Positions 26,557 through 50,094 of a stretch of DNA of 64,000 nucleotides are shown here, one piece after another. Made by a program: the position numbers and the translations under genes. The notes under the pieces are model-generated. The model was not told the DNA's origin and ran no database searches. It was given only the letters and a program-made list of their open reading frames with translations. Source of the DNA: Algoriphagus sp. (GTDB lineage Bacteria > Bacteroidota > Bacteroidia > Cytophagales > Cyclobacteriaceae); the NCBI RefSeq assembly GCF_024305035.1, contig NZ_JAMWZB010000003.1, positions 62,001 through 126,000 of the forward strand, in the 5' to 3' direction. Each line of letters opens with the position of its first letter. The first letter of the stretch is position 1.

Positions 26557-27934
26557 ATTTTTCCAATCTACGATAAAGGGAAGATCTCGTTAAGCCTAAT
26601 TCCTCTGCAGCTCGGGTGATGTGTCCATTGTGTTTTTGAAGCGCTTTTCGAATTAGAATTCGCTCCACATCCTCGATGTTAAGATGCTCAAGGCTGACAT
26701 TTTCTTCGGTTTTTTCGGGCTGCCCCATTTTTTGGAGAAAAAGATCTTCCGGTTGTAGGACGTTATGATTGGACATGATGACAGCCCGCTCAATACTGTG
26801 TTGCAGTTCGCGTATATTTCCGGGCCAGTGGTACTTACTCATGCGTTTGACCAAGGGTTCGGATGCTTTTCGGATTTCTTTATTGTATTTTTTGGAATAG
26901 TAACTGATAAAATGATCGGCCAAAAGTGGAATATCTTCCACCCGATCTCGGAGCGGAGGTAAGGTGATTTCTATAGTATTGATCCGGTAAAGTAAATCTT
27001 GCCGGAAGGTATGATCATAAACCATGTTGTATATCGGCATATTGGTTGCAGAGATCAATCGGATATTGACATCTACCGCTCGGTTTGCCCCAACTCGAGT
27101 GATTTGACGGTTTTGAAGGGCAGCTAGAAGTTTGGCTTGGAGTGCCAAAGGTAGGTTGCCGATTTCGTCCAGAAAAAGAGTCCCCTTATGTGCTTGCTCA
27201 AATCTTCCTGCCCGGTCCTCTTTGGCATCGGTAAAGGATCCTTTTTTATGTCCGAAAAGTTCTGATTCAAATAATGTCGTAGTAATTGATCCCAAATCAA
27301 CTCCAACAAAAGCTTCTCGGCTTCGTCGGGAGTTTCGGTGAATTGCCCGGGCGATTAGTTCTTTGCCTGTGCCATTTTCACCTAGAATTAATACATTGGC
27401 ATCAGTAGAGGCCACTCGCTCAATGGTTTCAAATACTTTTTGCATCGCAGGACTTTGCCCGATGATGTCTTTGAATTTATCATCGATATCCTGGTGCAGG
27501 GTGGCTTTTTGATCTCTGAGAAGATTGACTTCAAGTTTTTTCTGTCTGAGCTGAAGAGCGGAATTTAAGGTGGCCAATAAGCGTTCATTCTCCCAAGGTT
27601 TCAAAACAAAATCGGTCGCCCCTTCTTTGATCGCTTTCACGGCAAGATTGACATCCCCATAAGCAGTGATAAGGACTACGACCGCAGAAGGGTCTAATTC
27701 TAAGATTCGATCCAACCAATAAAATCCTTCCTGTCCTGAACTTACATCTTTGGTGAAATTCATGTCGAGTAAAATCACATCGTAGTTTTCGTTATGCGTG
27801 AGTATAGGAAGCAAATCAGGATTGGTCTCCGTATCCACCTGGGCGAAATGCCGCTTAAGAAAAATCTTCGCTGCTTTGAGCAAGTCTTCATTGTCATCTA
27901 CAATTAGGATTTTTCCCATTCGTTGCTCGTTCAT
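26546..27934 (-). CDS. Sigma-54-dependent response regulator (NtrC type), 462 aa
   Basis: Three domains: receiver (residues about 8-120) with phospho-acceptor Asp57 in ILLDMNF; AAA+ domain (about 155-390) with Walker A GENGTGKE (185-192) and Walker B GTLFLDEIGN (251-260); and a C-terminal Fis-type HTH (GHITRAAEELGLTRSSLYRR). The loop that touches sigma-54, normally GAFTGA, reads GSFTDA (232-237): F and T are kept, A and G are changed. It is cotranscribed with the kinase and divergent from the adaptor gene. The TGTTCG/CGAACA operators placed about 70 bases before sigma-54-like elements in this locus are its likely binding sites. Confidence 0.92.
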   Translation of the reverse strand: MNEQRMGKILIVDDNEDLLKAAKIFLKRHFAQVDTETNPDLLPILTHNENYDVILLDMNFTKDVSSGQEGFYWLDRILELDPSAVVVLITAYGDVNLAVKAIKEGATDFVLKPWENERLLATLNSALQLRQKKLEVNLLRDQKATLHQDIDDKFKDIIGQSPAMQKVFETIERVASTDANVLILGENGTGKELIARAIHRNSRRSREAFVGVDLGSITTTLFESELFGHKKGSFTDAKEDRAGRFEQAHKGTLFLDEIGNLPLALQAKLLAALQNRQITRVGANRAVDVNIRLISATNMPIYNMVYDHTFRQDLLYRINTIEITLPPLRDRVEDIPLLADHFISYYSKKYNKEIRKASEPLVKRMSKYHWPGNIRELQHSIERAVIMSNHNVLQPEDLFLQKMGQPEKTEENVSLEHLNIEDVERILIRKALQKHNGHITRAAEELGLTRSSLYRRLEKYGL

Positions 27935-28113: not shown

Positions 28114-28217
28114 TGTTCGCTGACGGACGAAAATGTTCGAGAATTGCTTTTCTAAAATTCTCCAAATGGGGTATTGAGTGGTTTTTGAGCGAATTTTTGC
28201 TGGCACAGCCTTTGGCA
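28114..28217 (+). promoter_or_regulatory. Operator and sigma-54-like promoter of the adaptor unit (copy 1)
   Basis: Operator: TGTTCG (28114-28119), N4, CGGACG (28124-28129), N4, TGTTCG (28134-28139). After 62 bases TGGCAC begins at 28201, with TTTGGC at positions 11-16 of the element. The adaptor ATG is at 28251, about 25 bases after the expected transcription start. Confidence 0.65.
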
Positions 28218-28250
28218 ATTCCTGACCAAGCCCAAAAGGGCGAATGCATC

Positions 28251-29501
28251 ATGGATAGAAAAATCGAAAAGAAAACATGGACTCCCAAACGAATCGCCGC
28301 TGCACTCGGTGGTGCCATTTTGATTGGGGGAATAATTTACCAGTTGGGCTTTGCTGATCATCGTTCTACAATGAATGTAGATAAAGAACGATTGAGTATC
28401 GGTACCGTTCAGATGGGGGAGTTTACAGATTACATTTTGGTATCTGGACAGATCGAACCTGCTCGCACAGTTTACCTGGACGCCATTGAAGGGGGAGTGG
28501 TCAATCAAGTAATCCGTGAATCGGGAGCATTGGTGAACCGGGGAGATACGATTCTCATTTTGACCAATTCCAATCTTCAATTAGATGTCATGCAGCGTGA
28601 AACCATGCTTTACGAGCAGATAAACAACCTGCGTCAGACTCGTCTACTTTTGGATCAAAATGACCTCAATCAACAAGGACAATTGGCAGAAATTGATTAT
28701 CAGATCAGCTTACTGGAGCCGCAGTATAAGCGATTTAAAGAACTCCACGAAAAAAAGTTGGTTTCCGATCGGGAATTTGAGGAGGTCAAAGAGCAGTATG
28801 ATTACAATCTTAAACGAAGAAAGCTTACCTATGCCTCCTACCGCAATGATTCGATAGCCCGCTCAATTCAGCTCAACCAACTGCGAATGTCTGAAAATCG
28901 GATGCAAGCCTCCCTAACTGGAGTTGGCAATATTCTGGACAACTTGGTTATAACTGCACCCATAGCAGGTCAGTTGGCAACCCCCGAACAGCTGGAAATT
29001 GGACAGGCAATCAATCCGGGTCAGCGCTATGGTCAGATCGATGTGTTAGACGAATTCAAGGTGAGGGTACCCGTAGATGAACTTTATTTACCTAGAATTG
29101 GACCGGGTCTGAAAGGTAATTTTTCGCTTAGCGGTAGCGAGTACGAGCTTGAAATCACTAAAATCTATCCTACGATCAACAATGGTCGTTTTGAAGTGGA
29201 CATGGAATTTACTGGTGAAAGGCCTGAAGGTATTCGGCGGGGACAAAGCGTTCGGATTCGTCTTCAGCTCGGACAAAGTGAACAAAGTTTACTGTTACCT
29301 ACGGGTGGGTTTTTCAAGGATACGGGAGGAAATTGGGTATATGTCTTCAACACTTCTGGGAATGCCGAAAAGCGAAAGATCCGATTAGGCAGAAAAAATC
29401 CAGAATTCTATGAAGTCTTAGATGGTTTGGTTGAAGGGGAAAAAGTGATTATTAGTGGGTATGAGAACTTTGGGGAAAATGAAGTGCTGGAGATGAACTA
29501 G
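28251..29501 (+). CDS. Periplasmic adaptor (HlyD/MacA family membrane fusion protein), about 416 aa
   Basis: The adaptor of a tripartite efflux system, bridging inner-membrane permease and TolC. The ATG at 28251 (MDRKIEKKTW) is followed by one transmembrane helix (about residues 14-32); the longer upstream frame would run through the promoter. Then come the first half of the lipoyl domain (EGGVVNQVIRESGALVNRGD), a helical hairpin coiled coil (about 115-215), the second lipoyl half (VITAPIAGQLATPEQLEIGQ) and beta-barrel/membrane-proximal domains. It has its own operator and promoter, and the ABC ATPase follows 297 bases on. Confidence 0.88.
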   Translation: MDRKIEKKTWTPKRIAAALGGAILIGGIIYQLGFADHRSTMNVDKERLSIGTVQMGEFTDYILVSGQIEPARTVYLDAIEGGVVNQVIRESGALVNRGDTILILTNSNLQLDVMQRETMLYEQINNLRQTRLLLDQNDLNQQGQLAEIDYQISLLEPQYKRFKELHEKKLVSDREFEEVKEQYDYNLKRRKLTYASYRNDSIARSIQLNQLRMSENRMQASLTGVGNILDNLVITAPIAGQLATPEQLEIGQAINPGQRYGQIDVLDEFKVRVPVDELYLPRIGPGLKGNFSLSGSEYELEITKIYPTINNGRFEVDMEFTGERPEGIRRGQSVRIRLQLGQSEQSLLLPTGGFFKDTGGNWVYVFNTSGNAEKRKIRLGRKNPEFYEVLDGLVEGEKVIISGYENFGENEVLEMN

Positions 29502-29798
29502 TGAGGTCTTTGTCGACCGATGGTGGATGAGCTTGAAGCCGAGATAGGATCCCTGAAGTCAATTGAATTGATAAAAATTAAGTGCTAAAAATTAACCGTT
29601 TAAAATCATGAGCTGCAAATTTGACAAGAACTATTAAACTGGGATTTGATTTGATGAATGCAACTATTTGAATAAAAAATAATAGGAACTACTGGCTTAA
29701 ATAGAATTTCATACTTGAATAAATAAAGTTATACCTAATCGAAAAATTACGCAGGATCTTCTAGACCCCTTCGGTCTGAGATCATCAATTTCTACACT
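29502..29798 (+). other. Gap between adaptor and first ATPase, with a hairpin
   Basis: No operator copy of the locus type is seen here. Just before the ATPase start, GATCT (29755-29759) and AGATC (29779-29783) enclose the stem AGACC-CCTTC-GGTCT, a hairpin that would sit 16 bases before the ATG. It could be an mRNA processing or translation-control structure. The ATPase is likely read through from the adaptor promoter. Confidence 0.45.
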
Positions 29799-30497
29799 AT
29801 GGAAAATGTCATCAAAACAGTAAATCTTCGGAAACTCTACACCACTGAAGAAGTTGAAACCACCGCCTTGGATGGGATTCAAATTGAAATCAAAAAAGGG
29901 GAGTTTGTTGCCATCATGGGACCTTCAGGTTGTGGGAAGTCCACTCTCCTCAATATTATTGGACTGCTGGACAATCCAGATGATGGTCAGTACTTCTTTT
30001 TGGATCAAGAAGTGGCCAACTATTCGGAGCGGCAGCGCTCCTCGCTGAGAAAAGGAAACATCGGGTTTGTCTTTCAAAGCTTTAACCTGATTGATGAACT
30101 CACGGTATTCGAGAACGTGGAATTGCCTTTACTTTATCTCAAAATACCATCTGAAGAACGAAAAAGGAGAGTAGAGGAGGTGCTGACACGGATGAATATC
30201 ATGCATCGGCGCAATCATTTTCCTCAACAGCTTTCCGGTGGTCAGCAACAGCGAGTTGCGATTGCCCGAGCGATTGTGGCCAAACCTTCGGTTATTCTTG
30301 CCGATGAACCGACGGGTAATTTGGATTCCAAAAATGGGGAAGAAGTAATGCGGCTTTTGGAAGAATTGAATAATGAAGGAACTACCATCGTGATGGTTAC
30401 CCACTCCCCACATGACGCTAACTATGCCCACCGAATCATCAATCTCTTCGACGGCAAGGTAGTGACTGAGAATATCCGAGAGCAGTTTCACGTGTAA
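29799..30497 (+). CDS. ABC transporter ATP-binding protein (LolD/MacB type), 232 aa
   Basis: The ATPase of the exporter. All motifs are intact: Walker [10 protein letters not shown] (41-49), Q-loop FVFQSFNL, signature [15 protein letters not shown], Walker [13 protein letters not shown] with D-loop Asp, and the H-loop VTHSPHD. It has the short LolD/FtsE form without fused permease. It precedes two permease genes and can energise the eight duplicated permeases of the locus, since each of these already contains both halves of a dimer (inference). Confidence 0.92.
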
Positions 30498-30519
30498 AAG
30501 TGGTCAATTGCCGGTCATC

Positions 30520-30559
30520 GATGTTTGATGAATGGGGTTTACCTCCTTCATCGAACATC
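30520..30559 (+). repeat. 13-base-pair hairpin between the ATPase and the first permease
   Basis: Bases 30520-30532 pair with 30547-30559 (13 pairs, one G-T wobble), loop of 14 bases. There is no T-run, so it is not a typical terminator. It lies between two genes whose products would be needed in different amounts and may set mRNA stability. It falls inside the over-long upstream reading frame, which argues for the ATG at 30612. Confidence 0.55.
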
Positions 30560-30611
30560 CTACACCAGTCTATTTTTTAGGCCGACTCCTAACTCCCTTA
30601 ACCATCCCTCT

Positions 30612-32972
30612 ATGTTCTCCCACTACCTTCTTCTTGCCCTTCGAAATTTTACCAAATTCAAGTCCATTTTTGCTATTAATCTTTTGGGGTTGACCTTGGG
30701 ATTGACGACTGTGATTTTGATTTCACTTTGGGTCAAGGATGAACTAAGCATCAAGCGCCATCACGAGCATGCTGACAGAATATATTCTGTCATGACTAAT
30801 CATGATAATTCGGGAGGTAAAGTAACCTGGAATCTCACTCCTGCAAAGATGCCTGAAGAGCTGAAGGCAGATTTTCCACAGGTCGAATTCGCCTCTGGGA
30901 TTTCACCATTTATCAAAGGGATGTCCTTCCAACGAGAGAACGAGAAAATCGAAGCAGAAGGGTACTTTGTGGACCAGGATTTTTTGCAAATTTTCAGTCA
31001 TGAGATGTTGTTGGGTAATCGTTCCAAAGCGCTTTCTGGTATCAATTCCATAGTATTGTCTGAGTCTATGGCCAATGCCCTCTTCGGCTCCGCACAACTT
31101 GCTATTGGAAAATCGCTGAAATGGCAAATTTTTGATTTTGGCAATGAGGTCGAAGTAACCGGGGTATATCAAGATTTTGGTCCCTTTGATGTTGAAAAGC
31201 CTCAGTTTTTGATGGCATATCCCTTTTTCTTAAAGATGCTTGGTGATGGGGTACATTGGGACAATTACAACACGTCCACCGTTTTATTACTTCGTGAAGG
31301 AACGGATATCGATTCATTTAATGCGCAAATAGCCCATTTCATAAAGGACCGAGCAGAGGGGTCTAATGTTACTCCTTTCCTGCAGCTATTTGCCGACACG
31401 TATTTGTACGGTAATTATGAAGATGGAGAAGTTGCCGGAGGACGCATCGATTACATCTGGCTTTTTTCCGGAATTGCATTGTTCATTCTTGTTATTGCCT
31501 GCATCAACTTTATGAACCTGTCTACGGCCAGATCTGTGGCTAGAGCCAAGGAAATCGGAGTAAAAAAGTCCATGGGCGCTTCCCGGATGGGGATTTTTGG
31601 GCAATTTATGGTGGAATCGTTGGTCTTGACATTTTTGGCTCTGATCAGTTCAGTTTTGGTAGTCTACCTCCTCTTGCCTTGGCTAGGTCAACTTACATTG
31701 AAGGAATTAAGCCTAGAACTTGACCTAGAAGTAATCCTGATTCTGATGGCCATTTGGGCGGTTACCAGTTTAATTGCTGGGGTCTACCCATCTCTTTATA
31801 TATCCCGATTCAAGCCTGTTCAAATTTTAAAAAGCAACCTAAAAGGAAGTATAGGTGAGTTGCTAGCCAGAAAAGGATTGGTCGTTTTTCAATTTGGAAT
31901 ATCCATGTTGCTGATTGTTGGAGTAGTGGTAATTGGCAAGCAGATGAATTATATCCAAAATCAGAATCTCGGATATAATCAATCCCATCTAGTGAAAATC
32001 CCTTCAGAGTCTATCCCCAAATCTCAGATAACGACTCTTTTGGATCAAATCAAAGCCATTCCCGGAGTAGAGAACGCCTCCAGTTTAACCCATCCTTTGG
32101 TTGGATTGGCAAGCTCAACGATAGGCTTGAACTGGGAAGGAAAAAATCCAGATGAGCAGGTGAAGTTTGAAAATATCTCAGTGAATATGGGATTAATTGA
32201 GACGATGGGCTTTGAATTGATTTCGGGCAGGTCTTTTTCTGCTGAGTATGGGCAAGAACAGACTAAGTTGATTCTCAATGAGTCAGCAGTCAAAATCATT
32301 GGTTTTGAAGAGCCGATTGGTCAATTGGTTAACCTGTGGGGGGAGGATATGGAAATAGTCGGAGTGGTAAAGGATTTTCATTTTGAATCACTAAAAGAAA
32401 CGGTAAAACCTGCCTTTATCAAGTATGATCCGGATTTCGCCCAAAACATCATGGTTCGAATTCAATCCGAAAATCAGGCAAAAACTCTCGCAGGGATTGC
32501 TAATGTCTTTCAGCATCTTCTTGGTCAAAAACCTTCCATTTCCTTTATGGATGAATCCTATCAAACGCTCTATGACCAAGAGCAGCGCGTGGCCTCGCTT
32601 GCGGAGTATTTTGGGGTTATGGCCATCTTTTTATCCTGCCTTGGGCTATTTGGCTTAGCTGCCTTCACTGCTGAAAATCGGAAAAAAGAAATTGGAGTAC
32701 GAAAAGTTTTGGGAGCCTCCATCGGTGGGATTTTAAACCTGATCGCATTTGATTTTATCAAACTGGTTTCGTTGGCGATTCTGCTGGTACTTCCAATAGC
32801 CTGGTATCTTGCTCAATCCTGGTTGGAAACCTATGCTTTCCAAACCAACCTGAGCTGGTGGATTTTTGCCGGGTCAGGGCTGCTATTGGTGCTTGTGGCT
32901 TTGGTTACTGTAGGTTTTCAAGCATTTAAAGCAGCATCCGCAAATCCAGTTCATTCCCTTCGAAATGAGTAA
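30612..32972 (+). CDS. Duplicated MacB/FtsX-type ABC permease 1, about 786 aa
   Basis: Two tandem MacB-like halves, each a membrane helix, a large periplasmic MacB_PCD domain and a three-helix FtsX domain; the protein therefore forms a complete transmembrane pair alone. The coupling motifs facing the ATPase are RAKEIGVKKSMGA in the first FtsX domain and KKEIGVRKVLGA in the second. The ATG at 30612 (MFSHYLLLALRNFTKFKS) is chosen because other permeases begin the same way (a short basic helix xxNYxKxALRN); the upstream ATG at 30525 runs through a hairpin. No operator copy lies in front, so it belongs to the adaptor/ATPase unit. Confidence 0.88.
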   Translation: MFSHYLLLALRNFTKFKSIFAINLLGLTLGLTTVILISLWVKDELSIKRHHEHADRIYSVMTNHDNSGGKVTWNLTPAKMPEELKADFPQVEFASGISPFIKGMSFQRENEKIEAEGYFVDQDFLQIFSHEMLLGNRSKALSGINSIVLSESMANALFGSAQLAIGKSLKWQIFDFGNEVEVTGVYQDFGPFDVEKPQFLMAYPFFLKMLGDGVHWDNYNTSTVLLLREGTDIDSFNAQIAHFIKDRAEGSNVTPFLQLFADTYLYGNYEDGEVAGGRIDYIWLFSGIALFILVIACINFMNLSTARSVARAKEIGVKKSMGASRMGIFGQFMVESLVLTFLALISSVLVVYLLLPWLGQLTLKELSLELDLEVILILMAIWAVTSLIAGVYPSLYISRFKPVQILKSNLKGSIGELLARKGLVVFQFGISMLLIVGVVVIGKQMNYIQNQNLGYNQSHLVKIPSESIPKSQITTLLDQIKAIPGVENASSLTHPLVGLASSTIGLNWEGKNPDEQVKFENISVNMGLIETMGFELISGRSFSAEYGQEQTKLILNESAVKIIGFEEPIGQLVNLWGEDMEIVGVVKDFHFESLKETVKPAFIKYDPDFAQNIMVRIQSENQAKTLAGIANVFQHLLGQKPSISFMDESYQTLYDQEQRVASLAEYFGVMAIFLSCLGLFGLAAFTAENRKKEIGVRKVLGASIGGILNLIAFDFIKLVSLAILLVLPIAWYLAQSWLETYAFQTNLSWWIFAGSGLLLVLVALVTVGFQAFKAASANPVHSLRNE

Positions 32973-33026
32973 AAAAGCTAGCTATACCAAAGGTTTATTA
33001 GAAACCAACCTTAACTATCCAACATT

Positions 33027-35396
33027 ATGTTCGCTAATTATCTAAAAATCGCACTTAGAGGCTTTGCCAAACACAGACTGACTTTCTTTATTAACACTTT
33101 GGGACTTTCACTTGGTCTTTGGGCGGCCATTTTGATTGGCTTATGGATTAAGAGTGAATTTGAAAAGGGGAGAGGCCTTGCTGAGTCTGATCAAGTATTC
33201 CGGGTCATGGAACATCAATTCTACGGGGATCAAGTGTTTACTATTCCTTCCACTCCTGGGATTTTGGCTGAAGCCATGAAAGAAAACCTAACTGAAGTCG
33301 AGCATGCTGCAACCTATACCTGGAATGAAGAGCATTTATTTGTTCATCGGGAAAATAAAATCAAATTAACGGGTTTGTATGCTGGGCCGGATTATCTAAA
33401 CATTTTTCAATTTCCTTTACTTGCCGGAAACCGTAATTCGGTACTCACAGATAAGTCCCATATCGTTTTAACCGAGTCTGCGGCGATTAAATTGTTTGGA
33501 ACCTTAGATGCATTGGGGGAACAAGTGGAATTGGTTTCAAATGAGGGAAAAGAGCTATATCTGGTTGAAGGAATTTTGGCAGACCCAGGAGAAAAGGCGG
33601 AGACCAATTTTGAATACATTCTGCCCTATCAGGTAATTTTCGATAAGCCCTATAATGATTGGCTCAAGCACTGGGGAAACAATGGGCCGAGTACCATCCT
33701 AAAACTCCGGAAGGGAACGGACCCGGAAAAATTTTCAGCCTCGATCAAAAATTTCATCAAGGATCGAATGGAGGGGGTAAATACGGAATTATTCGTTTTT
33801 CCCCAAAGTGACATGTATCTCTACGGTTCATGGAAGGATGGGATTTTACAAGAAGGAAGAATCAAAACGGTCAAGCTTTTTGCCCTGATAGGCTTTTTTA
33901 TTCTCCTTATTGCTTGCATTAATTTTATGAATCTCTCAACTGCCAAGTCTCAAAAAAGGGCTAAGGAAGTAGGGGTTAGAAAGGTTTCCGGAGCGGACCG
34001 GAAGTCATTGATTTATCAATTTTTGAGCGAATCCTTAATAATTACTTTGTTTTCAGGAGTTTTATCTTTACTTCTGGTACAGGCTACGTTACCGGTATTT
34101 AATCAGCTAACTGGGAAAACCCTGATGATTCCATTTTTCCAACTTGAATTTTGGCTTCAGCTTTTTGGAATCCTGTTATTCACCGGCTTGGTAGCTGGAA
34201 GCTATCCAGCATTTTATCTTTCGGCTACCAAGGTGGTTTCTGTATTTAAAAATCATTTGACAGGAAGCAAGCATGTAGTTTTCGCTAGAAAAGGATTGGT
34301 TTTGTTTCAATTTATTTTGGCCACGGGATTGATTCTTTCCACGGTGGTAATCTTTCAGCAGATCAACTATGCGCTCAATCAGGACTTGGGTTATGAAAAA
34401 GATCAGTTGATATCGGTATCCCTAGAAGGTCAATTACTTGAAAAGTATGAAATTTTCAAAAGTCGAATCGAATCTATTCCAGAGGTCGGCTCGATGTCGA
34501 GAGCTCTGCACAGCATGATGGGGAGAAACAATAATACAGGTGGAGTAGATTGGGAAGGAAAGGATCCAGACTTCAATGCGTTGTTTGAGCGATTTCGGGT
34601 AGATTATGATTTTTTGGAAACCATGGGAATGAAGCTGGTCAGCGGAGAAGATTTTTCAAGAGAAAAAGGTTCGGATTCAATTAGTGCAGTTATTTTAAAC
34701 GAAAAGGCCTTTCAAATTATCACCCAAAATAATCCCGAAAACCGATCAGTGAATATCAACGGAGAGGAGCGGGAAGTAATAGGAGTAGTCAAGGATTTTC
34801 ACTTCCAAAGTCTGCATGAAGCCATGGAGCCTGCATTTATTGTTCTTGAGCCTCAATATGCTGAAAATGCTTTTATCCGAGTGAAATCAGGCGATATGCA
34901 ACAGACTTTGGCCTCCATACAACAAGTAGCCGAGGAACTAAACCCCTTGTTTCCATTTAGCTATCAGTTCATGGATGATAATTATGCACGAATGTACCAG
35001 GACGATGTTCGTCTTCGAGACTTGGCCCAATACTTTAGCCTGTTAACCATTTTGATTTCCTGCTTAGGATTATTGGGACTTTCGGCTCATGTGGCCGAGC
35101 AGAAAACCAAGGAAATTGGCATAAGAAAAGTTCTGGGAGCCTCTACCTGGTCGATTTTGACCGTGATCAATCGTGAGTTTATTTCCATTGTCGTCTTGTC
35201 GATAATCATCGGTTCTGCGCTCGCTTTTTGGCTTATGCAGGATTGGTTGAAGGGATATGCCTATCGGATTGAATTTGAGTGGTGGTTTATTCCTTTTGCT
35301 GCGGGCGTAATTCTCGGAATTGCTTTGCTGACGGTGGGCATTCAATCTTTTAGGGCTGCTCGCTCCAATCCCGTTCATGCAATCAAATCAGAATAG
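33027..35396 (+). CDS. Duplicated MacB/FtsX-type ABC permease 2, 789 aa
   Basis: Same two-halved architecture. First FtsX domain: ACINFMNLSTAKS then RAKEVGVRKVSGA; second: KEIGIRKVLGA. Ends NPVHAIKSE, the common tail of the set. It begins 54 bases after permease 1 with no operator or terminator between, so the two are cotranscribed. The periplasmic domains differ strongly from those of permease 1 while the membrane and coupling segments are alike, as expected if the periplasmic parts set the substrate or partner. Confidence 0.88.
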   Translation: MFANYLKIALRGFAKHRLTFFINTLGLSLGLWAAILIGLWIKSEFEKGRGLAESDQVFRVMEHQFYGDQVFTIPSTPGILAEAMKENLTEVEHAATYTWNEEHLFVHRENKIKLTGLYAGPDYLNIFQFPLLAGNRNSVLTDKSHIVLTESAAIKLFGTLDALGEQVELVSNEGKELYLVEGILADPGEKAETNFEYILPYQVIFDKPYNDWLKHWGNNGPSTILKLRKGTDPEKFSASIKNFIKDRMEGVNTELFVFPQSDMYLYGSWKDGILQEGRIKTVKLFALIGFFILLIACINFMNLSTAKSQKRAKEVGVRKVSGADRKSLIYQFLSESLIITLFSGVLSLLLVQATLPVFNQLTGKTLMIPFFQLEFWLQLFGILLFTGLVAGSYPAFYLSATKVVSVFKNHLTGSKHVVFARKGLVLFQFILATGLILSTVVIFQQINYALNQDLGYEKDQLISVSLEGQLLEKYEIFKSRIESIPEVGSMSRALHSMMGRNNNTGGVDWEGKDPDFNALFERFRVDYDFLETMGMKLVSGEDFSREKGSDSISAVILNEKAFQIITQNNPENRSVNINGEEREVIGVVKDFHFQSLHEAMEPAFIVLEPQYAENAFIRVKSGDMQQTLASIQQVAEELNPLFPFSYQFMDDNYARMYQDDVRLRDLAQYFSLLTILISCLGLLGLSAHVAEQKTKEIGIRKVLGASTWSILTVINREFISIVVLSIIIGSALAFWLMQDWLKGYAYRIEFEWWFIPFAAGVILGIALLTVGIQSFRAARSNPVHAIKSE

Positions 35397-35417
35397 ATTC
35401 AATGAATTTAATGATGT

Positions 35418-35519
35418 TGTCCGAATGCGACCAAAGTTAGCCCATAATGAACAGTTGATAGGAAACGAATCCACTTCAGAGGTGTGGAGAGGTAGGTTTT
35501 CGATCGGTATAAAACCTGT
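35418..35519 (+). promoter_or_regulatory. Operator and sigma-54-like promoter of permease 3 (copy 2)
   Basis: Operator: TGTCCG (35418-35423), N4, CGACCA (35428-35433), N4, TAGCCC (35438-35443); the third hexamer is weak. After 62 bases CGGTAT begins at 35505, with CCTGT at positions 11-15. The ATG is 60 bases after the element start, at 35565. Confidence 0.5.
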
Positions 35520-35564
35520 ATAAAAACTCTTGATTCTGTAGAATTTGTAAATCAAAACGAGGCC

Positions 35565-37991: not shown

Positions 37992-38054
37992 AATTAATAG
38001 GGAGTAAGGGCTTGAGATTGAGTCGAGTTTTATTTTTGGTTCAGGTTTTATATT

Positions 38055-38157
38055 TGACCGAAATCGATCGAAATTGTTCGAAAATCAGGAGACTTGATTT
38101 TTCAAGATGCCCCAAATTTAGAAATTGGGGCATTTTTGATTTGGCTTGATTTTGATT
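38055..38157 (+). promoter_or_regulatory. Operator and sigma-54-like promoter of permease 4 (copy 3)
   Basis: Operator: TGACCG (38055-38060), N4, CGATCG (38065-38070), N4, TGTTCG (38075-38080). After 62 bases TGGCTT begins at 38142, with TTTGA at positions 10-14; the -12 part is the weakest of the set. A terminator hairpin lies between operator and promoter. The ATG is at 38195. Confidence 0.6.
38109..38137 (+). terminator. Intrinsic terminator between operator and promoter of permease 4
   Basis: GCCCCAA (38109-38115) pairs with TTGGGGC (38125-38131), extended by ATTT/AAAT pairs, and is followed by five T. It would end transcripts of permease 3 immediately before the promoter of permease 4. 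Confidence 0.65.
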
Positions 38158-38194
38158 TAATCCAAAAGAAGAAATCATATTCAATTTAAGTCAT

Positions 38195-40648: not shown

Positions 40649-40698
40649 AAGAAAAGGGGAGAGAGGAAAGCCATCCTCTTTCAATGCAAGCGGACCAT

Positions 40699-40799
40699 TG
40701 CTCGCTATCGCACAAAATTGATCGCTAATTCCCATCATCAATTCAAAAATATCCTTTTCTAAGCGATAAGTAGGTCTTAGAATTGGCACCAAAGTGGGA
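40699..40799 (+). promoter_or_regulatory. Operator and sigma-54-like promoter of permeases 5-6 (copy 4)
   Basis: Operator: TGCTCG (40699-40704), N4, CGCACA (40709-40714), N4, TGATCG (40719-40724). After 60 bases TGGCAC begins at 40784, with TGGGA at positions 12-16. The ATG is at 40830, 46 bases after the element start. Confidence 0.6.
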
Positions 40800-40829
40800 A
40801 TTCAACTGAAACTATTTAATTCATGACTG

Positions 40830-43196: not shown

Positions 43197-43290
43197 TGGA
43201 ATACTTCAATTGATTGAAAATCAGTTGAAATTAGAATGCGTAAAAACTAGTTTATTCTTATGATTTAGCTTGCTTCAAACCTGAATTCTC

Positions 43291-45645
43291 ATGTTCCAAA
43301 ACTACCTAAAAATCGCCTGGAGAAATATAACCCGCAGTAAAGGGTATGCTTTTATCAATGTCATTGGCTTGGCCATTGGTTTGGCAGCATCAATTTTAAT
43401 TTTCGTGTGGATTCAATTTGAGCGATCTGTAGATAGTTTTTACCAAAAATCGGATCGAATCTATGCGGTTTGGAGAAACGACCACAATCAAGGGCAAATT
43501 AACAGTTGGGATTTCACCCCGACACTTTATGCTCCGACCATGAAAGCTCAATTTCCTGAGGTCGAAGAAGTAGCTCGGGTGACCCGCTGGGACCCTCAGC
43601 TCCTTGCGGTAGGGAAAAAAAGTTTTTACCAAAAGAGTACGTTTACCGATCCCGGATTTTTTGTTCTTTTCGATTTTGAGGTTTTGGAAGGTGACCCGAT
43701 TGCAGCCTTGAAAGAGCCGGGAACTATGGTGCTGACACAATCGGTAGCCGAAAAGCTATTTGGAACTGCGTCGGCTATGGGAAAGACCGTTACAGTGGAA
43801 GGTCAGCTGGATTTTGAAGTACGTGCGGTTATTGCGGATTTGCCTGAAAACACCAATTTTGATTTTTCGGTATTTCTTCCGTTCAAAACACTGGAAACCC
43901 TGGGATGGGCAGATGAATTTTGGGGAAATAATTCCTATCAAACCTTTGCCCTACTCTCCGAAGGTACTGATTTGGAAAAATTTAATCAGAAATTTAAAGA
44001 TTTTACCAGCCGAAATTCGGATGCTGAGACGGTTACTGATTTTTTGTTTCCGCTATCAGATCTGCATTTGAACTCCAAATTTGAACATGGAAAGTCAGTA
44101 GGGGGGCGTATCGATTTGATTCGTATGTTTGGCGGGGTGGCTATGATCGTGTTGTTGATTGCCTGTATCAATTTTATGAACCTGAGTACGGCCCAAAGTA
44201 GTAAGCGGGCAAAGGAAGTGGGAGTTCGAAAGATTTCCGGTGCAGCCAGAGGAATGTTGATTCGACAATTCTTAACTGAATCCACCTTAATCGCCTTGGC
44301 CGCTTATCTGATCGCCTTGGTAATAGTCTCGGTATCCTTACCTTTTTTTGCTGATCTACTCGACGTTGAGCTACTCAATCCTTTTGCAGAACCTTACTTT
44401 TGGCTGCTTTCCCTGGCTTATATTTTAATTACGGGAATTTTGGCTGGAAGCTATCCGGCCTTTCTGTTGAGTTCATTTCAGCCTGCAATTGTTTTTCAAT
44501 CTAAATTAAACTCCATGCGCTACTGGTTTACTTTCCGTGAGGTTTTGGTAGTTTTTCAGTTTATGGTGGTGGTTATTCTGATTTCCAGTACCTGGATCAT
44601 TCGTGATCAAATGAGTCACGTTCAAAATCGAGACATTGGAATGGAAAAAGAAAATTTGATTTATCATCCGGTGACTTCTGAGATTCGGAAAAACAAGCAG
44701 GCGCTACGAAATGAATTATTGGCTTTGCCTGAAGTCAAATCTGTCAGTTATACTTTTTCACCCCTGACTGAAATTTACAGCAATACCCACTCGATGCAGT
44801 GGCAGGGCAAGGATGAGAACTACCGCCCCAATATAAATCGAATGGCCTCAGATGCGAATTTGATCGAAACGGCGGGAATGGAGTTAATCGCGGGTCGGGA
44901 TATTGACGTGTATACTTTTCCCTCTGATAGTTTGGCTGCCCTGATCAATGAAAAAGCCGCAGAGGTAATGGGGTTTGAAGAGCCTATTGGACAAGTGATT
45001 GATGACGATACCAAAAAGTTTACCGTGGTGGGTGTAGTGAAAGATTTTATCATGGATTCTCCTTTTGAAGATCTGAAACCCATCATGATACAAGGTCCAG
45101 AACGAAATCTTGATTTCATCCACATTCGATTTCATCAGGGAAATACCCTTACAGCCCTTCAGGAGGTAGAGGTCCTCTTTGCGAAGTTTAATCCTGGTTT
45201 TCCCTTTGAATACCGTTTTATGGATCAAGAATTTGAGCGGAAATTTTCAAGCCATAAACAAACCGCTCAACTCACGGCCATATTCACGCTGTTGGCAATT
45301 TCGATTTCAAGTATGGGATTGTTTGGCTTGGCAGCATTTATGGCCGAGCAGCGGAGTAAGGAGCTATCGGTGAGGAAGGTTTTTGGGGCTTCGGTCACAG
45401 GATTGATTCGTTTGATTTCTTCAGAGTTTACCAAGTTAGTGCTGGTGTCTGTTGTTTTGGCAATTCCGATAACCTGGTACTCGATGAATAATTGGCTGGA
45501 GAGTTTTTCTTATCGGATTTCCATCGATTGGAAAGTTTTCTTTTGGACGGCATTGGCCGCTTTGGTCATTGCCTTTGTGACGGTAAGTTCCCAAGCCTTC
45601 AAGGCGGCTAGGGTGAACCCCACCAAGCTTTTGCGCAGCGAGTAA
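43291..45645 (+). CDS. Duplicated MacB/FtsX-type ABC permease 6, 784 aa
   Basis: Two MacB_PCD/FtsX halves. First coupling motif RAKEVGVRKISGA after ACINFMNLSTAQS; second SKELSVRKVFGA. Ends NPTKLLRSE. No operator copy in the 94-base gap before it, so it is likely cotranscribed with permease 5. It starts MFQNYLKIAWRN, nearly the same as the opening of permease 5 (NYVKIAWRN), hinting at a local duplication. Confidence 0.88.
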   Translation: MFQNYLKIAWRNITRSKGYAFINVIGLAIGLAASILIFVWIQFERSVDSFYQKSDRIYAVWRNDHNQGQINSWDFTPTLYAPTMKAQFPEVEEVARVTRWDPQLLAVGKKSFYQKSTFTDPGFFVLFDFEVLEGDPIAALKEPGTMVLTQSVAEKLFGTASAMGKTVTVEGQLDFEVRAVIADLPENTNFDFSVFLPFKTLETLGWADEFWGNNSYQTFALLSEGTDLEKFNQKFKDFTSRNSDAETVTDFLFPLSDLHLNSKFEHGKSVGGRIDLIRMFGGVAMIVLLIACINFMNLSTAQSSKRAKEVGVRKISGAARGMLIRQFLTESTLIALAAYLIALVIVSVSLPFFADLLDVELLNPFAEPYFWLLSLAYILITGILAGSYPAFLLSSFQPAIVFQSKLNSMRYWFTFREVLVVFQFMVVVILISSTWIIRDQMSHVQNRDIGMEKENLIYHPVTSEIRKNKQALRNELLALPEVKSVSYTFSPLTEIYSNTHSMQWQGKDENYRPNINRMASDANLIETAGMELIAGRDIDVYTFPSDSLAALINEKAAEVMGFEEPIGQVIDDDTKKFTVVGVVKDFIMDSPFEDLKPIMIQGPERNLDFIHIRFHQGNTLTALQEVEVLFAKFNPGFPFEYRFMDQEFERKFSSHKQTAQLTAIFTLLAISISSMGLFGLAAFMAEQRSKELSVRKVFGASVTGLIRLISSEFTKLVLVSVVLAIPITWYSMNNWLESFSYRISIDWKVFFWTALAALVIAFVTVSSQAFKAARVNPTKLLRSE

Positions 45646-45748
45646 ATTTGAAAGAGTATGGAGTTAATTTGAAATGTTCGTTGTACCTAGTTCCCGGGAA
45701 AAAGTCAGTCCAATTGACAAACGGCGTCAAAAAATCCATTTACTCTTT

Positions 45749-45756
45749 TAGATTTG
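45749..45756 (+). promoter_or_regulatory. Possible housekeeping -7 element for the oxidoreductase
   Basis: TAGATTTG matches the Bacteroidota -7 consensus TAnnTTTG exactly and lies 44 bases before the ATG. The nearest TTGACA upstream (45714) is 32 bases away, too far for a standard -33 box, so only the -7 element is supported. No locus-type operator is present here. Confidence 0.35.
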
Positions 45757-45799
45757 TAATTCATCCTTATGATTCAATTTATCGAATAAACCCTAACCT

Positions 45800-47149
45800 A
45801 TGAAAACCAAATTTCAATTCATCGATCGTCGTGACTTTTTGAAAAAGTCAGTATTGGGAGCTGCTGGAGTGACCTTGGCTCCTTCACTTTTGGCTCAAGC
45901 CAAAGCTGCGGGAAAACTGCGTACTGCGCATATTGGTCTTGGAGCGATGGGTATGGAGGATTTAGCTGCGATATCCTCTCATGAACTGGTGGAGGTTGTG
46001 GCCCTTTGTGATGTGGACAGCAATGCCTTGGCTACAGCCACCTCACGCTTTCCAAATGCCAAAACTTTCTCGGATTATCGAGTTTTATTGGAAGAATTAG
46101 CCGATGAAATCGATGCGGTGGTTGTTTCCACACCTGACCATACCCATGCCCCAGCTTCTCTGATGGCCATGGAAAAAAACAAGCCAGTTTATTGCCAAAA
46201 ACCACTTACACACCATGTGACTGAGGCGAGGGAAATGAAAAAAATGGCCGAAGAAAAAAAACTGGTGACCCAAATGGGAATTCAGGTCCATTCCTTTTAC
46301 GATTATAAATTGGCAACTTTGCTAATTCAGGATGGAATCATCGGAAAAGTCCATACTGTTCGGGCATGGTCACCCAAAAACTGGGGATACGACGGTCCCA
46401 AACCCAAAGGGAAGGATCCGATTCCAGAGAACTTGGATTGGAATCTGTGGTTGGGTACAGCCAAAAAGCGAAAATACAAAGAGGGTGTTTATCATCCAGG
46501 AAATTGGCGGAAATTACTCGATTACGGTTGTGGAACACTTGGCGATATGGGCGTCCATATTTTTGATACCCCTTACAATGCACTACAGTTAGACGTTCCA
46601 CGCACCATTGTCAACAATTGTCGAAAGCCGAATGGATTTGGTTTTCCGGAGAATAACGTGGTAACTTATGAATTCCCTGCAACGCCTTACACTGCCGAAA
46701 CACTCAAGTGGGTATGGTATGATGGCCCTGGAGCACCGGTTGATCATGAAGATCTGAAGTTACCCAATGGGGATGAGTTACCCGATCAAGGGGCGATGTT
46801 CTTGGGAGAAAAAGGACGCTTGCTCCTGCCACACTTTCAGCAATTGCCTCGCTTGATCGTAGATGGAAGGTATCAGGAGTTTGATGTGGCCAAATACAAT
46901 CTGGGGGAACCAGTGAAAGATTATGCAGGAGAAAGCAAGAAACACTACCATCAGTTTGTAGATGCCTGTTTGGGCAAAGATAAATGCAGCGCACCTTTTG
47001 AATATTCTGCTCGCCTGACAGAGACCATTTTGTTAGGAGTGATTGCAGGTCGGTTCCCAAATCAAACCCTTCATTGGGATAGTGAAAAGGCCGAATTTGC
47101 CGAAAGAAAGGCCAATAAGTTTTTGGGAGGAAAATATCGAAAGTTTTAG
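45800..47149 (+). CDS. Tat-exported Gfo/Idh/MocA oxidoreductase, 449 aa
   Basis: Twin-arginine signal DRRDFLKKS at the start, then a Rossmann domain (AHIGLGAMGMEDLAAI), the family's DHTHAP patch (STPDHTHAPA) and the lysine motif, here YCQKPLTHH. This belongs to the Bacteroidota exported Gfo/Idh group. It is not a transport gene, yet it sits inside the permease array with a housekeeping-like -7 element and no operator copy, so it is probably independent of the regulon. A 9-base-pair hairpin (47141-47149 with 47162-47170) spans its stop codon. Substrate unknown. Confidence 0.88.
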   Translation: MKTKFQFIDRRDFLKKSVLGAAGVTLAPSLLAQAKAAGKLRTAHIGLGAMGMEDLAAISSHELVEVVALCDVDSNALATATSRFPNAKTFSDYRVLLEELADEIDAVVVSTPDHTHAPASLMAMEKNKPVYCQKPLTHHVTEAREMKKMAEEKKLVTQMGIQVHSFYDYKLATLLIQDGIIGKVHTVRAWSPKNWGYDGPKPKGKDPIPENLDWNLWLGTAKKRKYKEGVYHPGNWRKLLDYGCGTLGDMGVHIFDTPYNALQLDVPRTIVNNCRKPNGFGFPENNVVTYEFPATPYTAETLKWVWYDGPGAPVDHEDLKLPNGDELPDQGAMFLGEKGRLLLPHFQQLPRLIVDGRYQEFDVAKYNLGEPVKDYAGESKKHYHQFVDACLGKDKCSAPFEYSARLTETILLGVIAGRFPNQTLHWDSEKAEFAERKANKFLGGKYRKF

Positions 47150-47222
47150 AACGAAAAAAAGCTAAAACTTGAACCCAGGATTCATTAAGATTCAAATTCC
47201 AGTTTTTAGAAATCTCTTAGTT

Positions 47223-47324
47223 TGTTCGAATTCGAACAAAAATGTTCGGGATTTCGATTCGGATTAAATCAAAATATAGTCTCTGAAGTCACTTCAGGGA
47301 CTTTTTTATGGCACAATACTGGGG
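47223..47324 (+). promoter_or_regulatory. Operator and sigma-54-like promoter of permease 7 (copy 5, perfect operator)
   Basis: Operator with no mismatch: TGTTCG (47223-47228), N4, CGAACA (47233-47238), N4, TGTTCG (47243-47248). After 61 bases TGGCAC begins at 47309, with TGGGG at positions 12-16. A terminator lies between the two. The ATG is 135-144 bases downstream. Confidence 0.7.
47278..47307 (+). terminator. Intrinsic terminator between operator and promoter of permease 7
   Basis: An 11-pair stem (47278-47288 with 47292-47302, one wobble, loop TCA) is followed by six T. It ends one base before the TGGCAC element, so upstream transcripts stop where the next promoter begins. Confidence 0.8.
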
Positions 47325-47452
47325 TGAAGAAGAGCGAGCATTTAACCGGAGAAGGTGATTAGTTTCTAGACTTATCAATTCTACTCAGGTTAAACCTGAT
47401 GCCTCGTTGCAGGCCTTAGACCTTTGTTTGACTTACGTAATCCTTGTTTTCT

Positions 47453-49864
47453 ATGATCAAAAATTATTTTACCATTGCTTGGAGAAATTTAATTCGAAAT
47501 AAGCTAAGGACAAGCGTGCATGTGCTAGGCCTTTCCTTGGGAATTTCAATTTGTTTTTTGATTTTCAATGTAGTTTGGCATGCCTATAGTTTCGATCTGT
47601 TTCATCCGGATCGGGAACATATTTTCCGAATCAATACACTAACAGAGTATCACACCGGGGAAAAATATCCAAACTCAGGAACTCCAGGTCCATTGGGAGA
47701 GGTCGTTGATTCAGAGGTTTCCGGAATTATCGAAAAGGGAAGGTTATACACGCTCCATCAGACTTTAGTGGTGGTGCCTGAAGGGAATAAAGTAATGGGC
47801 AGAACCGATAAAGCAACCTTTGCGGATCCGGGATTTTTTGAAATTTTTCCCAGGAAATGGTTGGCAGGTAATCCGCAAACGGCACTTGTTGAGCCCCACT
47901 CAGTGGTTATTACTCAAGGTCATTTGGAAAAATATTTTCCAGGGGTGGAAGCCATTGACGCTTTAGGAAAGGAATTGACCTGGATCGAAAAGGATACTAT
48001 CCGAGCTCAGGTGAAAGGGGTAGTGGAGGATTATACAGAAAATACCGATTTGATTTTTCAAGATTTTATTTCGTATGCTACCATTCAAACAGATCAGCAA
48101 AGGGAATGGTATGGATTGCATAGTTGGGGGTCTGTTAATTCCAGTTCACAGCTTTTCATCAAGATCAACTCCTCTACCGACCCTGAAGATTTGGATCTTT
48201 CCCTCGATAAATTGGTCGAAAAAAATTATGAAAAAAATAACCTAAATAAAACCAGCTTTTCCACGGAGCCTTTAGCCGATCTTCATTTTGGACAGAACTA
48301 CGACGACTCTTCAGTTTCGAAGGTTTTTCTTGAAGGGCTTAGTTACATTGGATTGATTATATTGGCGTTAGCGACACTCAATTTTGTAAATCTGGAAACC
48401 GCACAGTCCCTAGGACGAGCCAAAGAAGTCGGAATCCGAAAAACTTTAGGAGGAAGACGAGGGGAACTTGTGATGCAGTTTTTAACGGAGACCTATCTTC
48501 TCGTACTCATGGCTACTGGTGTGGGGATGATATTGGCAGAGGGTCTTCGTATAGTTTTCCTTTCCTATCTTCCTCAGGGATTTTCAATGGATTACTGGGC
48601 AATTCAAAATTTGATATTCTATGCGCTAGTTCCATTAGCCCTTGCTCTTATTGCGGGGATATATCCTTCCTTGATCCTTTCTGGCTATAATCCGCAACGT
48701 GCACTAAAGGGGGAAAAGAATTCTTCTCCCGGGTTTTCCATTGGCGTATTTTTAAGAAAAAATCTGACCGTAATTCAATTTTCTTCCTCCATAGCCTTTG
48801 TCATTCTTGTTTTAACACTCCAATACCAAATCAACTTCGTTTCCAGTCAACCGCTAGGTTTTGACAAGAGTGCCATTGTGTATGCTAGCTTGCCTTTTAT
48901 GTCACCGCAAGAAAAAATGGTTCAATTGCAGGAGCGGCTCAATCAAAGTTCAACAGTCAGAGGGGCAAGTTTGAGCGGAGGTTTAGTTTCTTCTACCAGT
49001 CTTTGGACTTCAGATGCTTTTATTCCTAAAGATACTACCGAAAAAATGGTTTATGTTCAAGTAATGAACGTGGATTCGGCATTTGTTGGCGTGAATGGGA
49101 TTCCACTGTTGGCTGGTAAAAGTCACTTAACCCAGGAAGATGAGATCTTGGTGAACAGGAATTTTCTGAAGGAAGCCGAACTTTCCCAACCCGAAGAAAT
49201 TTTGAATCTGGAGATAGAATTTAATGGCAAGCAATGTAAGGTGGTAGGCGTTATTGAAAATTATCACTCCCGAACCCTGAGAGAAGATATCAGGCCAATG
49301 ATAATGACCACTAATCCAGCCTATTTTCAGACCCTTACCGTTAAGCTCGAATCAGGTCAAAATTTAGCCTCTGCAAAATTGGAGCTGGAAGAAATTTTCA
49401 ACAGCATTTATCCCTATGAAACAGCTGAGTTTAATTTTTTGGATGAGGAAATCAATCAATTTTATGAACAAGATTTAAGGATAAGAAATGTGCTTGGTGC
49501 GGCCTGTATTTTGGCGATCTTAATTTCAATAATGGGACTGTTTGCCTTATCTTCCCACACGATCGCTCAAAGAACCAAAGAAATCAGCATACGAAAAGTA
49601 CTGGGAGCTTCACTTGCACAAATCCTTGGGTTGATTTCAAAAGATTATGTCATTTTAGTAGGGATTTCTTTTTTGCTGGCGATTTTTCCGGCTTATTATT
49701 TTCTCAGAGACTGGCTAAATGACTTTCAATATCGGGTCGAAATGCCTTATTTTATTTTTGTAGGTTCTGGACTGGGAGTGATGTTGATTTGTTTGGCTAT
49801 AGTAGGTTTGCACGCATTTTTAGCCGCTCAAACCAACCCGGCTAAAATTCTTCAAGATGAATGA
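47453..49864 (+). CDS. Duplicated MacB/FtsX-type ABC permease 7, about 803 aa
   Basis: Two MacB_PCD/FtsX halves. The first FtsX domain has ATLNFVNLETAQS and RAKEVGIRKTLGG; the second TKEISIRKVLGA. Ends NPAKILQDE. The ATG at 47453 (MIKNYFTIAWRN) matches the opening of the other permeases; the ATG at 47444 adds MFS and is also possible. It has its own operator and promoter and is flanked on both sides by terminators, so it is likely a single-gene unit. Confidence 0.87.
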   Translation: MIKNYFTIAWRNLIRNKLRTSVHVLGLSLGISICFLIFNVVWHAYSFDLFHPDREHIFRINTLTEYHTGEKYPNSGTPGPLGEVVDSEVSGIIEKGRLYTLHQTLVVVPEGNKVMGRTDKATFADPGFFEIFPRKWLAGNPQTALVEPHSVVITQGHLEKYFPGVEAIDALGKELTWIEKDTIRAQVKGVVEDYTENTDLIFQDFISYATIQTDQQREWYGLHSWGSVNSSSQLFIKINSSTDPEDLDLSLDKLVEKNYEKNNLNKTSFSTEPLADLHFGQNYDDSSVSKVFLEGLSYIGLIILALATLNFVNLETAQSLGRAKEVGIRKTLGGRRGELVMQFLTETYLLVLMATGVGMILAEGLRIVFLSYLPQGFSMDYWAIQNLIFYALVPLALALIAGIYPSLILSGYNPQRALKGEKNSSPGFSIGVFLRKNLTVIQFSSSIAFVILVLTLQYQINFVSSQPLGFDKSAIVYASLPFMSPQEKMVQLQERLNQSSTVRGASLSGGLVSSTSLWTSDAFIPKDTTEKMVYVQVMNVDSAFVGVNGIPLLAGKSHLTQEDEILVNRNFLKEAELSQPEEILNLEIEFNGKQCKVVGVIENYHSRTLREDIRPMIMTTNPAYFQTLTVKLESGQNLASAKLELEEIFNSIYPYETAEFNFLDEEINQFYEQDLRIRNVLGAACILAILISIMGLFALSSHTIAQRTKEISIRKVLGASLAQILGLISKDYVILVGISFLLAIFPAYYFLRDWLNDFQYRVEMPYFIFVGSGLGVMLICLAIVGLHAFLAAQTNPAKILQDE

Positions 49865-49889
49865 TCAAGTTTAGTAGCAGCTGGAGATT

Positions 49890-49991
49890 CGTCCGCCACC
49901 GAACAAAATTGTACGCAAAATTAAATAGGACCTTATTTAAAGAATGGCTCTGGAGGGTATTCAGGGCCTTTTTTTATGGCATAATAGTGGA
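49890..49991 (+). promoter_or_regulatory. Operator and sigma-54-like promoter of the permease 8/ATPase/TolC unit (copy 6)
   Basis: Operator: CGTCCG (49890-49895), N4, CGAACA (49900-49905), N4, TGTACG (49910-49915). After 62 bases TGGCAT begins at 49977, with TGGA at positions 12-15. A terminator lies between. The ATG is 118 bases after the element start. Confidence 0.65.
49946..49975 (+). terminator. Intrinsic terminator between operator and promoter of permease 8
   Basis: GGCTCTG (49946-49952) pairs with CAGGGCC (49962-49968, one wobble) and is followed by seven T. It ends one base before the TGGCAT element, the same layout as in front of permease 7. Confidence 0.75.
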
Positions 49992-50094
49992 ATTATAAGC
50001 CTTGAGTAGTTAGAAGTAATGAAGGATTAAACGAATGCGTCAAGCCATTTCTTTCAATTTTAACAGGCTGCTTATATGCTAACATCTTTGAGCC

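Follow-up and report, generated by a model that had tools for sequence, protein, structure and literature searches.

The window analysed here, a 64,000-nucleotide (nt) stretch of an Algoriphagus-like genome (Cyclobacteriaceae), holds a two-component system, a large ABC-export locus and, repeated within that locus, an operator followed at a nearly constant distance by a sigma-54-type promoter. On the minus strand lie a sensor histidine kinase (25204-26556) and an NtrC-type response regulator (26546-27934), the presumed activator; divergent from them run the genes for an HlyD-type periplasmic adaptor, an ABC ATPase, eight permeases, a second ABC ATPase and a TolC-type outer-membrane channel. The activator is composed of REC, AAA+ and Fis-type helix-turn-helix (HTH) domains, with matches to the Pfam models Response_reg, Sigma54_activat and HTH_8 all above cut-off, and its closest counterparts in named genomes are from Algoriphagus, at no more than 96% identity. 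The kinase gene overlaps that of the activator and encodes a HATPase_c domain behind a hydrophobic N-terminus that, by hydropathy, has about two membrane-spanning stretches. RpoN is represented in the genome by a single Sigma54_DBD match on contig 34, and four strong Sigma54_activat proteins are found besides the activator.

A preliminary description made from the letters of the sequence had reported six copies of an operator of three alternating hexamers (26 bp), each with a TGGCAY-like element at a fixed distance. This observation is confirmed, firmly for five of the six copies. A strict search with the 26-mer, allowing up to three mismatches, finds four of the six sites in the window where 0.02 are expected by chance, and none of 100 shuffles reaches four. 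Mismatches to the 26-mer number 0 at 47223, 2 at 28114, 3 at both 40699 and 49890, 4 at 38055 and 6 of 18 at 35418. The coordinates and distances had been read correctly: promoter starts counted at 62, 62, 62, 60, 61 and 62 amount to 61, 61, 61, 59, 60 and 61 intervening nt for the sites at 28114, 35418, 38055, 40699, 47223 and 49890, respectively. The -24 element TGGCAY itself is present at four of these sites. Using a composite operator-plus-promoter matrix trained on 130 sites from relatives only (threshold 12), we obtained scores of 57.3 (49890), 49.2 (47223), 48.3 (28114), 42.9 (40699), 20.0 (38055) and -0.7 (35418), while a composite match of at least 2 turned up in just one (16.2) of the 20 surrogate windows made with a Markov model.

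All six copies lie on the plus strand, and the promoters were assigned from sequence and matrix score. The first cassette stands between the activator and adaptor genes and consists of operator 1 (28114-28139; score 34.6), which has a counterpart in all 20 relatives fetched, a 61-nt spacer (28140-28200) with the A/T periodicity of its class described below, and the promoter TGGCACAGCCTTTGGC (28201-28216). Operator 4 (40699-40724; score 23.4) is followed by TGGCACCAAAGTGGGA (40784-40799). Operator 5, the perfect 26-mer (47223-47248; score 33.3), and operator 6 (49890-49915; score 31.9) are joined to their promoters, TGGCACAATACTGGGG (47309-47324) and TGGCATAATAGTGGAA (49977-49992), by spacers of 60 nt (47249-47308) and 61 nt (49916-49976) that each contain a terminator-like hairpin with a T run (-14.5 and -14.0 kcal/mol). 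At 38055 a good operator (operator 3, 38055-38080; score 26.6) is combined with a degenerate promoter, TGGCTTGATTTTGATT (38142-38157; promoter score -6.6). The marginal copy, operator 2 (35418-35443; score 1.4), precedes a weak promoter-like sequence, CGGTATAAAACCTGTA (35505-35520). Numbering the permeases P1 to P8 in gene order, the composite is found in 3/3 ortholog rows for P8 and 5/5 for P4 (window included in both), yet for P3 all 22 rows, which include that of the window and represent 19 distinct sequences, stay below the threshold of 12. Because the site at 35418 outscores every one of 3000 surrogate upstream windows, whose maximum is -1.7 and 99% point -16.0, and is nevertheless unmatched among the P3 orthologs, we treat it as a decayed or very weak copy; as a firm member of the regulon it was rejected. 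With this site doubtful and the promoter at 38055 degenerate, the proposal that the activator binds all six copies is not supported.

The strict 26-mer search of the whole genome returned five sites. The one that adds to the four in the window is a seventh copy, which lies on contig 35 (G000:C35:4220, L006:4220), has a composite score of 47.6 and a TGGCAT 60 nt downstream, and precedes a gene for an 824-amino-acid orphan permease, so the set is not confined to the ABC-export locus as had been supposed. For three further large permeases off the locus (contigs 2, 19 and 78), no site above 6 was found in the flanks scanned.

The architecture of the cassette was defined from 149 distinct sites, a subset of all matches that comprises those within fetched DNA stretches. 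The operator consensus is YGNYCG-N4-CGRACR-WWWW-TGTYCG, in which a 16-bp dyad is joined by a third half-site; the half-sites alternate in polarity with a 10-bp period. TGGCAY follows at 58 to 62 nt in 134/149 sites (3, 26, 27, 26 and 52 by increasing distance), and in these 134 the promoter lies beside half-site 3; it lies beside half-site 1 in none of the 149. Half-site 3 is nearly invariant although it was not selected on, with G22 conserved in 100% and C25 and G26 in 99% of 139 sites chosen by dyad and promoter. The operator flanks hold no further half-site, and a fourth half-site downstream was considered and not found. When the promoter was sought at any distance from 20 to 99 nt in other genera, 30 of the 31 thinned sites with a promoter score of at least 5 had that promoter at 59-63 nt, a count that left out operators without such a promoter score (L248-L251, L253, L254) and L238, which is without a strong operator.

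Sigma-54 promoters usually carry a GC in the -12 element, in the register GG-N10-GC. Here the -12 part reads TKG[AG] (TTTGGC for adaptors); the G at promoter position 14, which was not used for selection, is conserved in 97-98% of sites. Of the features expected of a sigma-54 promoter, the element has TGGCAY and this G; the -12 box is without its usual C.

The sites are not scattered at random with respect to genes. By BLAST of the first downstream gene against the proteins of the window, the 149 sites precede 76 permeases, 49 adaptors and 8 second ATPases (133 sites together), plus 16 unassigned genes. Nine of the unassigned genes, as read from the sequence, encode secreted proteins with many SSGGSI repeats; of two tested against Pfam, one matched DUF4097 and one had no match. 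These DUF4097-like repeat proteins stand behind the cassette in L060, L150, L155, L159, L187, L188, L190, L191 and L201.

Operator and activator co-occur across genomes. In a sample of 59 Algoriphagus genomes searched with a relaxed operator pattern, and with the reversed pattern as control, all 38 genomes with the activator contain operator sites (243 in total, 3-17 each), compared to 6 of the 21 in which no close ortholog was found; the reversed pattern gave 5 sites in the 59 genomes. In a family sample of 148 genomes, operators are present in 30/30 genomes with an activator ortholog of at least 78% identity (153 sites) and in 41/118 in which no close ortholog was found, with 16 control sites in the 148. 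Fisher tests of co-occurrence gave 1.4e-9 for the genus and 4.7e-12 for the family.

The position of the first cassette is equally constant. All 20 fetched Algoriphagus relatives have an operator between the activator and the adaptor, with TGGCAY exactly 62 nt downstream; in the window the distance is 61 nt. A scan of named genomes covered 60 loci, many of them from the same genomes as the fetched ones, and in 39 of these the activator has at least 81% identity; operator and TGGCAY at 61-62 nt are present in 39/39 (35 Algoriphagus, Litoribacter, two Belliella and Rhodonellum). The other 21 loci showed no such site when up to four mismatches and 56-66 nt were allowed. Sigma-54 autoregulation of the activator by divergent reading is not supported: on the activator side, each of the 12 rows listed has a negative promoter score, although 2/64 rows pass 12 by way of the operator part.

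The spacer between operator and promoter has a pattern of its own. After thinning at 75% identity (85 non-HlyD spacers reduced to 73, HlyD spacers to 27, and those of other genera from 34 to 31, with 30 used), A/T content peaks every 9.5-10 bp in the permease-type spacers (n = 73), in those of adaptors (n = 27) and in those from other genera (n = 30). In each set, none of 1000 rotations matched the observed power at 9-11 bp, and the result holds without the last 10 nt. In the other genera the mean A/T content ranges from 0.13 to 1.00, with peaks near -56, -46, -37, -27, -17 and -7. Two blocks of the spacer are fixed, an AAA around -38 to -35 and a T5 around -9 to -4. This regularity suggests a spacer that is constrained and patterned as a bend, whether intrinsic or protein-aided. 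Terminator-like hairpins occur in 24/64 permease, 8/8 second-ATPase, 2/13 unassigned and 12/49 adaptor spacers, compared to 19/320, 3/40, 5/65 and 12/245 in the respective shuffled spacers. The eight adaptor hairpins among the matches listed are weak (-6 to -9.5).

The sequence shows the cassette with its spacing, polarity and periodicity, the genes that it precedes and its co-occurrence with the activator, and from this we conclude that the sites are very probably enhancers of one regulon under the neighbouring kinase-activator pair, acting through sigma-54-type cassettes. The earlier suggestion that this activator and sigma-54 drive the units is, as far as sequence goes, upheld. In the mechanism we propose, the membrane kinase would phosphorylate the activator upon a signal, perhaps of envelope or antimicrobial origin, and the activator would then bind the three alternating half-sites, with the extra half-site always toward the promoter. 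Lying on one helix face, the three half-sites could seed an oriented AAA+ ring, and the next 58-62 bp, with A/T tracts phased at about 10 bp, would bend and thereby bring the ring up to RNA polymerase-sigma-54. Contact would be made at TGGCAY-N5-TKG and would be followed by promoter opening. In the tandem permease arrays, the spacer hairpins would terminate transcription of the preceding gene, which would insulate the units from one another and leave each to be fired by the cassette before it; such sites can filter read-through (PMC7408454).

We also consider a stronger version of this proposal, to which we give about an even chance. The element of about 115 bp would be a single rigid, pre-bent enhancer-promoter cassette, with half-site 3 setting polarity, a phased A/T bend of six turns, a -12 box without C that evolved together with an activator whose natural loop is G[SA]FTDA, and often a terminator within the bend. 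It would be an enhancer without distance independence that travels with exporter genes, and chained arrays of half-sites in other Cytophagales families would be its variants. The loop behind this idea is the sigma-54 contact loop of the activator, which reads GSFTDA where GAFTGA is usual; GSFTDA or GAFTDA is also found in Algoriphagus and the other close orthologs examined, and paralogs of 60% identity likewise have the D. In NorR, the same G-to-D change in the loop yields a constitutive activator (PMC2941729).

Several results weigh against the proposed regulon or narrow it. TGGCAY is missing at 56-64 nt in 15/149 sites, 12 of them before permeases and several with a degenerate YGGY. Promoter position 15 is A or G, with C in just 4-6% of sites, and as the canonical -12 C is missing, the use of sigma-54 is inferred from TGGCAY and the register GG-N10-G. 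Many orthologs of P2, P3, P6 and P7 were without a cassette in the upstream scan. The genomes in which no close activator ortholog was found are not free of operators, having 7 sites in the genus and 75 in the family; some of these are chance matches, and others may reflect homologs of 64-73% identity or assembly gaps. Outside the family, 178 genomes of the order gave 60 sites in 25 genomes compared to 45 control sites, which is near background. The four activator-less Algoriphagus genomes of 93-100% completeness have no adaptor match at 1e-30 either (4/4), so the absence of operators there is not independent proof and does not bear on whether a relative may keep the locus and lose the motif. 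Since sites are related by descent, the counts are not independent. In the spacers, power at 12-20 bp also exceeds the rotations in several sets, though it is far smaller than at 9.5-10 bp, and the A/T periodicity could come partly from terminators.

Descent offers another account of the fixed distance. The activator would bind the dyad as in an ordinary distance-tolerant enhancer, and the spacing and spacer pattern would be inherited from duplicated permease-plus-promoter units. The permeases are paralogs with cassettes before them, and classical NtrC sites are active at distances between about 70 and more than 1000 bp (PMC7408454), but the periodicity persists in spacers thinned to less than 75% identity, on which the adaptor, permease-type and other-genus sets agree, and the spacing of 59-63 nt is kept in other genera and before ATPase and DUF4097-like genes. 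We regard this explanation as unlikely. Somewhat better placed, although still doubtful, is the idea that the spacer pattern marks the site of an IHF/HU-like bending protein instead of intrinsic curvature, as sigma-54 loops are often aided by such proteins (PMC7408454). Yet the pattern spans about six turns, and apart from the AAA and T5 blocks it has no sharp motif, although no search aimed at IHF/HU sites was made.

It is very improbable that a different enhancer-binding protein occupies the operator in place of the neighbouring one. The four other strong Sigma54_activat proteins of the genome supply candidates, but genomes G034 and G044-G046 retain other such proteins and have no sites, and the best-conserved site adjoins the activator gene itself. 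Individual distribution was followed for the 60% paralog alone, which was rejected as the binder because G044, G045 and G046 keep it and yet have no site. Equally remote in our estimate is the use of the site by another sigma factor or a repressor, with TGGCAY not being a sigma-54 promoter. The -12 box without C would fit this, but TGGCAY stands in the GG-N10-G register, RpoN is present and a sigma-54 activator is adjacent; in addition, the flavobacterial sigma-A motif TAnnTTTG (PMC9723704) differs from the conserved element.

The regulon under the neighbouring kinase-activator pair can be compared with known systems. It resembles NtrC-type two-component systems in its REC-AAA+-Fis HTH activator, in a dyad upstream of a -24/-12-type promoter and in the presence of RpoN. 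Unlike classical NtrC enhancers, which tolerate distances of about 70 to at least 1000 bp, the spacing here is fixed at 58-62 nt and the spacer is patterned; the same source describes one two-site system that depends on helix face (PMC7408454). In Clostridiales, the majority of enhancer sites are found at 100-250 bp, and a single operon is controlled by 65% of the activators, two to six by the rest (PMC6615313); activator-bearing Algoriphagus genomes, in comparison, have 3-17 operator sites each. Escherichia coli NorR also uses multiple sites, as a scaffold for the activator ring (PMC2941729); NorR has three enhancer sites and a GAF domain, whereas the element described here has three half-sites within 26 bp at a 10-bp period and a REC domain. 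The QseF/GlrR site TGTCN10GACA (PMC8745638) shares TGT-N10-ACA with the first two half-sites but not the inner bases YCG-N4-CGR, the third half-site or the fixed spacing.

A role for sigma-54 in controlling the bacterial exterior was predicted in 2011 (PMC3162934), and sigma-54 promoters with mapped starts are reported for Flavobacterium psychrophilum (PMC9723704). Control of COG0577 FtsX permeases by sigma-54 was predicted in Bacteroidia in 2025 (PMC12316311), with the same kind of target and the same sigma factor as here; that study, in the text available, predicts promoters and names no activator or operator for them, and its main text makes no mention of Algoriphagus. No description of an operator of this kind was found among the papers listed by the literature searches. 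What looks new is the constrained spacer and, with it, a cassette that is rigid and patterned in an NtrC-type regulon, unlike distance-tolerant classical enhancers. In textbooks, bacterial enhancers exemplify action at a variable distance, and here a whole regulon keeps one spacing and a bend-like spacer, which could make the geometry of activator ring and sigma-54 polymerase testable, or open to imaging, on short natural DNA. MacB/FtsX-type permeases, as well as DUF4097-like proteins, are further linked by the cassette to a two-component system, and its motif is a means of finding further targets.

The genes of the exporter all lie on the plus strand, and their upstream regions were scanned in ortholog rows in which some genomes are counted twice (L045-L064 overlap L065-L124). 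For the adaptor (28251-29501; HlyD_3), the first target, this automatic scan finds the composite in 58/62 rows (44/48 distinct). The site is in fact present in the four rows that were missed (L063, L074, L079 and L093), which makes the start codon picked the likely cause. The first ATPase (29799-30497; ABC_tran) and P1 (30525-32972; MacB_PCD/FtsX, ADOP-like) have no cassette, in agreement with 0/63 (48 distinct) and 0/40 (30 distinct) ortholog rows. P2 (33027-35396) has none in the window and one in 8/27 rows. The marginal copy at 35418 precedes P3 (35565-37991; Pfam), and the cassettes that begin at 38055 and 40699 precede P4 (38195-40648) and P5 (40830-43196), both with MacB_PCD. P6 (43291-45645; MacB_PCD) has no cassette of its own in the window. 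P7 (47444-49864; Pfam) and P8 (50095-52497; MacB_PCD) follow operators 5 and 6, and the array ends with the second ATPase (52514-53188; Pfam), whose counterpart stands directly after the site in the 8 second-ATPase cases among the relatives (8/149), and the TolC-type channel (53172-54503; OEP). All eight permeases carry a MacB periplasmic domain. The darobactin exporter DarBCD and ADOP permeases are among the best NCBIfam matches of the adaptor (DarC-like), of the ATPases and of the two permeases tested, although every score stays under its curated cut-off: 201.6 of 450 bits for the adaptor, 290.5 and 228.7 of 375 for the ATPases and 117.7 and 141.5 of 700 for the permeases, with 325.4 and 215.6 of 622.3 bits for the ADOP model TIGR03434 (two of the eight permeases tested). 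Within the array, between P6 and P7, lies a GFO/IDH/MocA oxidoreductase (45800-47149) without a cassette of its own, and copies of it with 77-88% identity are present in five fetched stretches of such clusters.

The activator paralog of 60% identity, which has a kinase of its own, is located at G000:C12:143166-144545 (L194:11164-12546) and is matched, in some cases partly, in 56/59 Algoriphagus genomes; half-sites of the TGTCCGAT type in a different layout were read by eye upstream of it. Variant layouts also appear near more distant activators, again as read by eye. In Marivirga (71% activator identity, L100), a dyad with a poor third half-site is found at an offset of 64, and a Bacteroidales metagenome-assembled genome has four alternating half-sites with a 10-bp period before an activator homolog (L102:2240-2275), with TGGCAC far downstream. 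A few genomes of the order are notable for chained half-site arrays above a pattern that is mostly background. Such arrays occur in G323 and G375, from another family of the order, with five successive half-sites at G323:C16:50201-50246.

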